NCBI RefSeq assembly: GCF_003254585.1
Contig: NZ_QJGZ01000040.1
Coordinates: 1 to 64,000, forward strand
Source: Flavobacterium sharifuzzamanii
GTDB lineage: Bacteria > Bacteroidota > Bacteroidia > Flavobacteriales > Flavobacteriaceae
DNA: 64,000 bases
Direction: 5' to 3'
Below, in pieces: positions 8,655 to 34,092 of this stretch. The stretch's first letter is position 1; each line of letters begins with the position of its first letter. Below the pieces are notes generated by a model. It was given only the letters and a program-made list of their open reading frames with translations. It was not told the DNA's origin and ran no database searches. The translations under genes and the position numbers were made by a program.

Positions 8655-10411
8655 TTAGTCCTTCAAATCCAATCCAAATGTTGAACGCAAAAGCTCGATG
8701 TTTGGATTAATTTCTAAGAAACGATTATATCTATCTTGATTATTATAAGTTCGTTTTGTTTCAGCCTGCTCATTTACAATTACTTCGATTGTTATGTCGT
8801 GATTATGTAAATGACCTTTTAAATGCCCCAATAAACCATTCATCTGACTTTCAAATTCTAGTTTAGAACCTTCATTTGGCAGTTCGTAAGAAATTGTGGT
8901 TCCGTTTAGAACAGGATCGCTAATCAATAGAATAGATTCCATGATTCTAAGCCCTTTTTGCCCTAAACGTTCTGCATATTTGTTCCAATGAAGACGCATA
9001 TCGGTTTCGTTAAATTCCTCAGTAGGCAAAACTGAAGAAGGTTTAACATACGATTTGCTGCTTGCTTCCAATTCTTTTTTCTTACGGATACTGGCAAGAG
9101 AAAAAGCAGAAACTTTAGGCGCGCCATTTGCATCTGTTTTTGGAGCTTCTGGAGCCTGAACTTTTGGAGTTTCAGCAACTTGTTCTGGTTGAGGAATGGC
9201 AACTTTAGTTTCAGTTACAGTCTGAGAAGCTTGATTTTCAGTTGCAACAGAACTTTCAACTATGGACTTTGGACTTTGGACTTCAACTATAGAATAGCCT
9301 CCGTTTTTAAAGTAAACGGGAGGAATTATGAATTGCTCAACTTTTTTTTTTCTCCATCAAAGTTGATAGAGGCCAATTGCATCAAGCATAATTCAACTAA
9401 AAGTCGTTGATTCTGGCTTAATTTGTATTTTAAATCGCAATCATTCGCAATGTCAATTCCTTTTAGCAAAAAATCCTGAGAACATTTTTGCGATTGTGCA
9501 GCATACATTTGCTGTGCTTGCTCACCAACTTCTAATAAAGCAATAGTCGAAGGTGTTTTGCTTACTAATAAATCTCTGAAATGTGAAGCCAAACCTGCAA
9601 TAAAATGATGCCCATCAAAACCTTTGGCTAAGATATCATTGTATGCTAATAAAAGTTTCGGAATCTCATTTTCCAGAAGTAAATCAGTAATCGAAATATA
9701 AGTTTCGTAATCTAAAACGTTTAGGTTTTCGGTTACAGCTTGACGTGTCAAATTTGTTCCGCAGTAAGAAACTACACGGTCAAAAATAGACAAAGCATCA
9801 CGCATGGCACCATCTGCTTTTTGAGCAATAATGTGCAATGCATCATCTTCAAAAACGATTCCTTGACTTTCAGCAACATCAGCCAAATGTTCTTTAGCAT
9901 CTTTTACTGTAATTCTTTTGAAATCAAAAATCTGACAGCGAGATAAAATCGTTGGAAGGATTTTGTGTTTTTCTGTTGTTGCTAAAATGAAAATAGCATG
10001 TTTTGGCGGTTCTTCTAATGTTTTAAGAAAAGCATTAAAAGCGGCCGAAGACAACATGTGGACCTCGTCAATGATATATACTTTGTATTGTCCAGTTTGT
10101 GGCGGGATTCTAACCTGATCGATAAGGTTACGAATATCATCAACCGAGTTGTTTGAAGCAGCATCTAACTCAAAAACGTTAAAGGCAAAATCTTCAGTAG
10201 GATCGTCATATCCAGGCTGATTTATTTTTCTTGCCAAGATACGCGCGCAAGTTGTTTTACCAACTCCACGCGGACCTGTAAACAAAAGAGCAGAAGCTAA
10301 GTGATTGGTTTCAATAGCGTTCAACAAAGTGTTTGTAATGGCCTTTTGCCCCACAACATCCTTAAAGGTCTGCGGGCGATATTTTCTTGCCGATACTACA
10401 AATTGTTCCAT
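8655..10411 (-). CDS. dnaX: DNA polymerase III subunit gamma/tau, needs a -1 frameshift for the full length
   Basis: The clamp-loader ATPase begins MEQFVVSARKYRPQTFKDVVG. It has Walker A GPRGVGKTT near residue 46, DEVH in YIIDEVHMLS, and sensor 1 ATTEKHKILPTILSRC. The zero frame ends at 9326 after 361 residues, just past domain III. A run of ten A (plus-strand T at 9342-9351) precedes that stop. Slipping back one base there opens a frame through a Pro/Ala/Glu-rich linker into a tau-like C-terminal domain ending at 8655, about 585 residues in all. I checked the -1 frame from 9341 to 9069 codon by codon and found no stop. The four-Cys zinc module usual in bacterial DnaX is absent between ARILARKINQ and FELDAASNN. 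Whether the shift is programmed or a sequencing error cannot be settled here. Confidence 0.9.
9298..9323 (-). promoter_or_regulatory. Hairpin downstream of the dnaX slippery site
   Basis: On the coding strand CCTCC-C-GTTT pairs with AAAC-GGAGG: nine base pairs with one bulged C and a seven-base loop. It begins about 18 bases after the A run, further than the 5-6 bases usual for frameshift-stimulating structures, so its role is uncertain. Confidence 0.35.
9342..9351 (-). promoter_or_regulatory. A10 slippery site in dnaX
   Basis: The coding strand reads GGAG followed by ten A and then GTTGAG. In the zero frame the codons are GAA AAA AAA AAG, which contains A AAA AAG, the heptamer used for -1 frameshifting in E. 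coli dnaX, in the same phase. Four sense codons after AAG comes TAA (9328-9326). Homopolymers of this length also cause transcriptional slippage, as known for Thermus thermophilus dnaX. Confidence 0.6.
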
Positions 10412-33999: not shown

Positions 34000-34092
34000 A
34001 GGAGCTGATTCCTGCTGTCCGCTATATCTTTTGTGGCGAACCCCGCCACAAAAGGATGCCGCTCCCATCAGGGCTAGGGCATTCGGTTTCAA
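34000..34092. repeat. 93-bp GC-rich dispersed repeat, copy B (inverted relative to copy A)
   Basis: The reverse complement matches 12601-12694 almost base for base. The internal hairpin CTTTTGTGGCG/CGCCACAAAAG is perfect here, whereas copy A has one change in the stem that keeps a G-T pair. Its GC content is far above that of the flanks. Confidence 0.8.

Follow-up and report, generated by a model that had tools for sequence, protein, structure and literature searches.

Two predicted products from one dnaX gene in Flavobacterium sharifuzzamanii: probable transcriptional slippage on a conserved A10 run

The window analysed here comprises 64,000 nucleotides of Flavobacterium sharifuzzamanii DNA (contig NZ_QJGZ01000040.1, positions 1 to 64,000) and carries, on its minus strand, a dnaX gene that is divided over two reading frames. 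The zero frame, running from 10411 to 9326 (minus strand), encodes a gamma-like product of 361 amino acids with the protein end GEKKKLSNS, its final codons being GAA AAA AAA AAG TTG AGC AAT TCA TAA; the terminal TAA (9326..9328, minus strand) overlaps an ATA codon of the tau frame. Within the codons GAA AAA AAA AAG lies a run of ten A (9342..9351, minus strand), which includes the heptamer A_AAA_AAG. The -1 frame is without a stop from 9356 to 8655 (minus strand), and its continuation downstream of the run, the tau-specific C-terminal part (8655..9341, minus strand), has 228 codons plus stop. The +1 frame ends at a TGA (9337..9339, minus strand) directly after its first codon beyond the run (AGT), and relatives are alike in this respect. 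Immediately upstream of the run, at 9352-9371 (minus strand), folding predicts an RNA hairpin, CUCUAUCA-ACUU-UGAUGGAG, with an 8-bp stem whose 3' arm stands directly against the run. Elsewhere in the window are a bacterial RNase P RNA of class A (RF00010; 13120-13451, plus strand) and two copies of Flavo-1 RNA (RF01705; 12614-12689, plus strand, and 34004-34079, minus strand), an RNA for which we know of no function.

The two frames represent one DnaX because the NCBIfam model NF011531 (614 positions) is split between them, the zero-frame product matching positions 1-370 and the -1 frame positions 407-613. The zero-frame product (AAA+ ATPase, lid, domain III) also matches PF13177, PF22608 and TIGR02397, with PF12169 slightly below cut-off, and the tau part had no match in the Pfam search. 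Among 17 pairs of close relatives, differences in the tau part number 484, 310 and 979 at codon positions 1, 2 and 3, respectively, and this concentration at the third position marks the -1 frame as a coding frame under purifying selection. A preliminary description of this DNA had placed the zero-frame stop 361 residues in, right after the clamp-loader domains, had read A AAA AAG in the phase of the E. coli dnaX heptamer, and had proposed that a single gene supplies both products from two coding frames. The first point is confirmed by the sequence and by the match to NF011531 1-370, the second is read directly from the codons, and the third is supported; the tau-like part, put at about 225 residues, does lie in the -1 frame and is 228 codons long. 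From an mRNA with one added A, a tau of ~585 residues is predicted.

A structure model of the tau part has a mean pLDDT of 75, with residues 111-190 above 90. The folded domain (model residues 108-192; 8766-9020, minus strand) is similar in shape to DnaA domain I and DciA, with VIA Z scores of 8.7 to 4tps_B (79 residues), 8.4 to 2e0g and 7.7 to DciA 8a3v_C. Foldseek, run with the tau model, gave a weak match (E 0.32) to 5fku_E, a chain of the E. coli polymerase complex that we take to be tau, and a profile search of solved structures with the tau part returned two weak hits (E 0.84 and 0.95). Because Z scores near 8 can reflect a common arrangement alone, they argue weakly for a tau-type domain; on the model, the folded domain is a candidate counterpart of tau domain V, and its likeness to DnaA domain I and DciA may point to a replisome-binding fold common to these proteins.

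The window holds a single A10/T10, compared with 16.25 expected from dinucleotide shuffles, and the whole genome of 5.26 Mb holds 116 A10 positions, overlapping ones included. An exact 18-base string made up of part of the hairpin arm and the run was present in 81 of 101 same-genus genomes (including its own), and the reversed control in none. Across 150 genomes of the genus, the dnaX open frame mostly spans ~355-415 codons, with 566-614 codons in ten and a few truncated matches. The genus sample consisted of 145 loci out of 144 genomes (G031, G101, G116, G122, G127 and G131 being left out as partial or weak matches), to which four further loci were added and from which one duplicate was removed; one of the resulting 148 (L223) ends short of the site, leaving 147. 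In none of the 147 is the run shorter than ten A (A10 in 143, A11 in 3, A12 in 1). The tau part follows in the -1 frame in 135, in the +1 frame in 1 and in frame in 11, and these 11 fused genes all retain the run. The last codon is preceded by GAA AAA AAA in every one of the 147 genes; in the N-terminal part of the genus genes, GAA and AAA have shares of 0.81 and 0.86 of their own codon families, and none of 24 conserved lysine or glutamate control sites uses one codon exclusively. In L005 (Flavobacterium sp. YO12; A9) and L217 (A12) tau lies at +1, such that the loss of one A or the gain of two would be needed to reach it; the run length of L005 may be an assembly error.

Beyond the genus, we sampled 80 named loci, 56 loci of the family and 75 loci of other families (the phylum set). 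The family set combines 36 best matches with 20 loci picked for a short-looking open frame, and split genes are therefore over-represented in it, while the phylum set combines 15 best matches with 60 loci hand-picked to spread over families. With about one genome per genus of the family, 21 of the 146 genera that had a full match showed a short frame, by our own count. Of 359 unique loci, 330 have a run of nine or more A (147/148 in the genus, 55/56 in the family, 59/75 in the phylum set and 69/80 in the named set); this run is kept in 15 of 17 genes of 55-60% GC, and is absent from 16 of the 75 phylum-set and 11 of the 80 named-set loci. The 330 run-bearing loci comprise 123 with tau in frame, 197 with tau at -1 and 10 with tau at +1. 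The end of the run, among the 278 loci with A10, falls in codon phase 2 in 236, phase 0 in 25 and phase 1 in 17. On trees of the N-terminal part, the fused or split state changed at least 6 times among the 147 genus genes; for the three-way frame state the minimum is 47 changes among the 330 loci, while over 355 loci the A10 end phase changed at least 25 times and presence of the run at least 14 times; these are fewest-changes counts on quick trees, which assembly indels might inflate. Pairs with similar flanks and different defaults illustrate such changes: in L241 the run is A10 and tau in frame, in L235 it is A9 and tau at -1; similarly, L024 (A10) is split and L195 (A11) fused. The preliminary description held the roles of the two forms to be reversed relative to E. 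coli, which is correct for the window and does not extend to the whole lineage, tau being in frame in 11 of the 147 genus genes. Relatives with eleven A and an uninterrupted frame, which it would have taken as evidence against two products, do occur (L195 and L219); yet in these, too, both non-tau frames stop within 5 codons.

Several loci depart from this arrangement. L299 (G164, from the family, with a genome of 2.2 Mb) is split, with tau at -1, and has only A4 with a zero-frame stop directly after it, which points to an assembly indel or to a different recoding signal. Two Bacteroidales MAGs, L074 and L080, have zero frames of 383 and 366 codons and no A run at the site. Tau is in frame without a long A run in L032, L041, L045, L053 and L081 (Bacteroidales, Bacteroides, Bacteroidaceae) and in L311, L314, L316 and L317 (other families of the phylum), and close stops in both other frames occur in L081 alone of these nine. 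In the lineages of these nine loci the slippage device was apparently lost or absent.

Codon choice downstream of the run indicates that stops in both non-tau frames are selected. The tau-frame isoleucine codon lying under the zero-frame TAA is ATA in 136 of the 142 genus genes with isoleucine at this site (background 0.154); the remaining six have ATC, each together with a zero-frame stop that comes earlier, AAG TAG, while the five other genus genes have leucine at the ATA site or leave the motif unmatched. Both the run length and the zero-frame stop, whose conservation in relatives had been suggested as a check, are largely maintained in the genus sample. The +1 stop is made by a T at the third position of the first tau codon in 137 of the 147 genus genes: where this codon specifies alanine it is always GCT (52/52; background 0.41), and 70 of the 77 valine codons are GTT (background 0.48), while the other seven, GTA, create a zero-frame TAG. 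Among the 133 split genus genes whose tau part is long enough, 99% have both non-tau frames closed within 7 codons, versus 25% at control codons of the same genes. Paired stops in the phylum set occur in 80% of genes with tau at -1 and 70% of those with tau in frame, versus 11% and 14%, respectively, at the control. For all sets combined, 316 of 330 run-bearing loci have stops in both non-tau frames within 10 codons (in the other 14 a non-tau frame remains open for longer) versus 3 of 25 loci without the run, and two of these three have A7. The 25 are those left from 29 run-less loci after setting aside L223, which ends early, and L038, L074 and L080, which have short zero frames.

Of the regions folded, structure prediction gives a strong signal only upstream of the run. 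The 30 bases before the run in the window fold at -8.4 kcal/mol (z -2.19), and the mean z upstream of the run in 60 sampled genus loci is -2.54. Downstream, the same 60 loci gave mean z values of -0.18 (+5..+55) and -0.46 (+5..+75), with -0.08 for a distant control, and no conserved hairpin that could act as a stimulator was found there. The 70 bases after the run in the window have a z of -0.64 and a weak CCUCC...GGAGG stem, which by eye is mostly missing downstream of the run in the listed relatives. When a hairpin was scored as a structure below -6 kcal/mol whose end lies no more than 3 bases from the run, it occurred at the run versus other positions in 92.5% versus 4.3% in the genus, 69% versus 2.7% in the family, 42% versus 4.2% in the named set and 15% versus 7.3% in the phylum set. 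Since the protein at the hairpin site is conserved, synonymous codons were randomised, giving mean z values of -1.80 for the genus (0.01 at a control site), -1.47 for the family, -0.94 for the named set and -0.07 for the phylum set. A hairpin of -6 kcal/mol or below at most one base from the run was found in 190 of 220 near loci versus 18 of 110 distant loci, and the median stability is -7.8 in split (-1) and fused genes alike. Outside Flavobacteriaceae-like loci the hairpin has no group support (15% versus 7%, z -0.07), and it is not supported as a phylum-wide feature; some distant lineages, such as L072 and L078, have strong abutting hairpins that are unrelated.

Support from covariation is mixed. 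Two measures are clear in 121 distinct sequences taken from loci whose protein shares 70% identity or more with that of the window: 83.5% of stem cells are paired versus 33-56% when slid, and 0 of 500 shuffles reached the covariation score. Cells with a double change number 20 versus 6.9 in shuffles, while a structure slid by one column still gives 18, and pairs with a double change number 5 versus 3.7 in shuffles, a value reached by 104 of 500 shuffles.

Taken together, these sequence comparisons make it probable that dnaX is one two-product gene in which RNA polymerase slips on the A10 run. Slippage would yield mRNAs with varying numbers of A: the unslipped A10 message would lead to the nearby TAA and the short gamma-like product, a message with one A more (or two less) would lead into the -1 frame and give tau, and lengths that lead into the third frame would meet a near-immediate stop. 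The hairpin formed in the nascent RNA and abutting the run would probably stimulate the slip, in the manner of an intrinsic-terminator hairpin. Because such a run would yield both products whichever frame holds tau, small indels beside it could swap the default product, a swap that has occurred repeatedly. Slippage in the cell, its efficiency and a need for both forms are what we infer from these patterns. For Bacteroidota in the broad sense, we see about an even chance that an A9-A11 slippage run is ancient and has been kept while the tau frame drifts, with gamma-default and tau-default genes interconverting by small indels, and that Flavobacteriaceae added the terminator-like hairpin.

While the two frames on either side of the A10 run stand as first described, transcriptional slippage is a likelier mechanism than a -1 shift of the ribosome on A_AAA_AAG of the kind seen in E. 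coli dnaX, here with the long form arising by the shift; we consider such a shift unlikely. In favour of the ribosome, the heptamer is in the E. coli phase in the window and in 137 of 147 genus loci, and tau lies at -1 in 197 split genes compared with 10 at +1, a predominance that fits slippage mostly adding one A and a -1 ribosomal shift equally well. However, the heptamer is in phase in only 189 of the 330 loci, the 10 genes with tau at +1 require a +1 shift, and an unbroken run exceeding seven is present in all 147 genus genes. The +1 frame is closed as well, which favours slippage because several run lengths need this stop and a -1 ribosomal shift does not. An internal Shine-Dalgarno stimulator usually lies some ten bases upstream, and the GGAG that is present stands directly against the run, which may be too close for this role. 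A downstream hairpin is not conserved in the 60 sampled genus loci, and the hairpin that is found lies upstream, a position reported to attenuate -1 ribosomal frameshifting (PMC6321510). Transcription is thus favoured by the long run, its free phase, the +1 genes, the double stops, the upstream hairpin and the lack of a conserved downstream one; since the in-phase heptamer is so frequent in the genus, ribosomal slippage on it may contribute alongside.

The remaining explanations are far less probable than a ribosomal shift. Phase variation at the DNA level, in which changes of chromosomal run length would toggle tau, could draw on the different run lengths of relatives (A9 in L005 and L235, A11 in L195), but exactly ten A are found in 143 of the 147 genes of the genus. 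The gene is essential in model bacteria, and having tau purely off would carry a cost; we regard phase variation as very improbable. Fission into separate genes for gamma and the tau C-terminal part would account for two ORFs, with a TTG at 9071 as the start of a 138-aa protein. Yet the open -1 frame (9356 to 8655) has no ATG, GTG or TTG before this one, 95 codons in; across 129 split genus genes the median distance to the first possible start is 75 residues, with 22 of the 129 having one within 30 residues; and the run is retained in the 11 fused genus genes, leaving fission with a still smaller probability. A sequencing or assembly error, or a pseudogene, deserves almost none. Homopolymers are error-prone, and lone odd run lengths such as that of L005 may be errors, but the homopolymer error that the preliminary description considered the main alternative fails because the same A10 split recurs across the genus, with tau at -1 and ten or more A in 135 of 147 genes, single-contig genomes included; purifying selection on the tau frame likewise speaks against an error or a pseudogene. 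Sequencing error, pseudogene and gene fission are all rejected on the evidence of relatives.

The dnaX of the window is of a kind already described, given the gene type of Antonov et al. 2013 (PMC3711429) and the statement, with dnaX as an example, that the roles of gamma and tau could be exchanged by changing one base (PMC5009743). Antonov et al. report a two-ORF dnaX type in which tau is produced by recoding, with 17 genes in 12 genera; ten A occur in nine of the 17 genes and seven to nine A in three, and slippage was proposed by similarity to Thermus (PMC3711429). The window gene is alike in having a zero-frame gamma, tau by a -1 shift and A10 at the junction, while the accessible parts of that report make no mention of a hairpin at the site or of runs in fused relatives. 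In Thermus thermophilus, dnaX is subject to transcriptional slippage on A9 (PMC1088944, PMC5009743), bacterial RNA polymerase being reported to slip efficiently on nine A or T and the Thermus dnaX mRNAs to carry one or more extra A in diminishing proportion (PMC5009743). A sense-strand run of at least nine A, stops in both non-tau frames and two products are common to both genes, but in Thermus tau is in frame and gamma arises by slippage, whereas gamma is the default in the window; the fused relatives, in which tau is in frame (123 of 330 loci), share the arrangement of Thermus. E. coli dnaX, which uses -1 ribosomal frameshifting (PMC3711429, PMC5009743), shares A_AAA_AAG in the same phase and gamma and tau from one gene, but the shift yields the short form in E. 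coli and would yield the long form here, and the upstream Shine-Dalgarno-like element and downstream hairpin described for E. coli contrast with an abutting upstream hairpin and no conserved downstream one. In the Roseiflexus IS630 transposase (Penno 2015), a nascent-RNA stem-loop 5' of the slip site is reported to enable slippage (PMC5009743). A hairpin 5' adjacent to the slip motif is likewise predicted in the window, but the Roseiflexus motif is T5C5 and a one-base deletion restores the frame, whereas the window has A10 in a replication gene. The abutting dnaX hairpin, counted frame swaps and a phylum-wide run in fused and split genes were not found in the open-licence PubMed Central papers searched; the phylum-wide conservation, the repeated swaps and the abutting hairpin are what the present sequence comparisons add.

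The need for both clamp-loader forms has been disputed, with a controversy over E. coli (PMC5009743). Across swaps of the default product, the run and the close double stops are kept through most of the phylum and the hairpin within one family, which offers strong comparative evidence that both forms are selected. Relatives with gamma or tau as the default and the same cassette provide natural pairs with which polymerase slippage could be separated from ribosomal frameshifting. Annotating the two ORFs as a short DnaX and an unrelated protein would miss tau, and, if the proposed mechanism is true, Flavobacteriaceae would carry, within an essential replication gene, a slippage cassette assisted by a hairpin.
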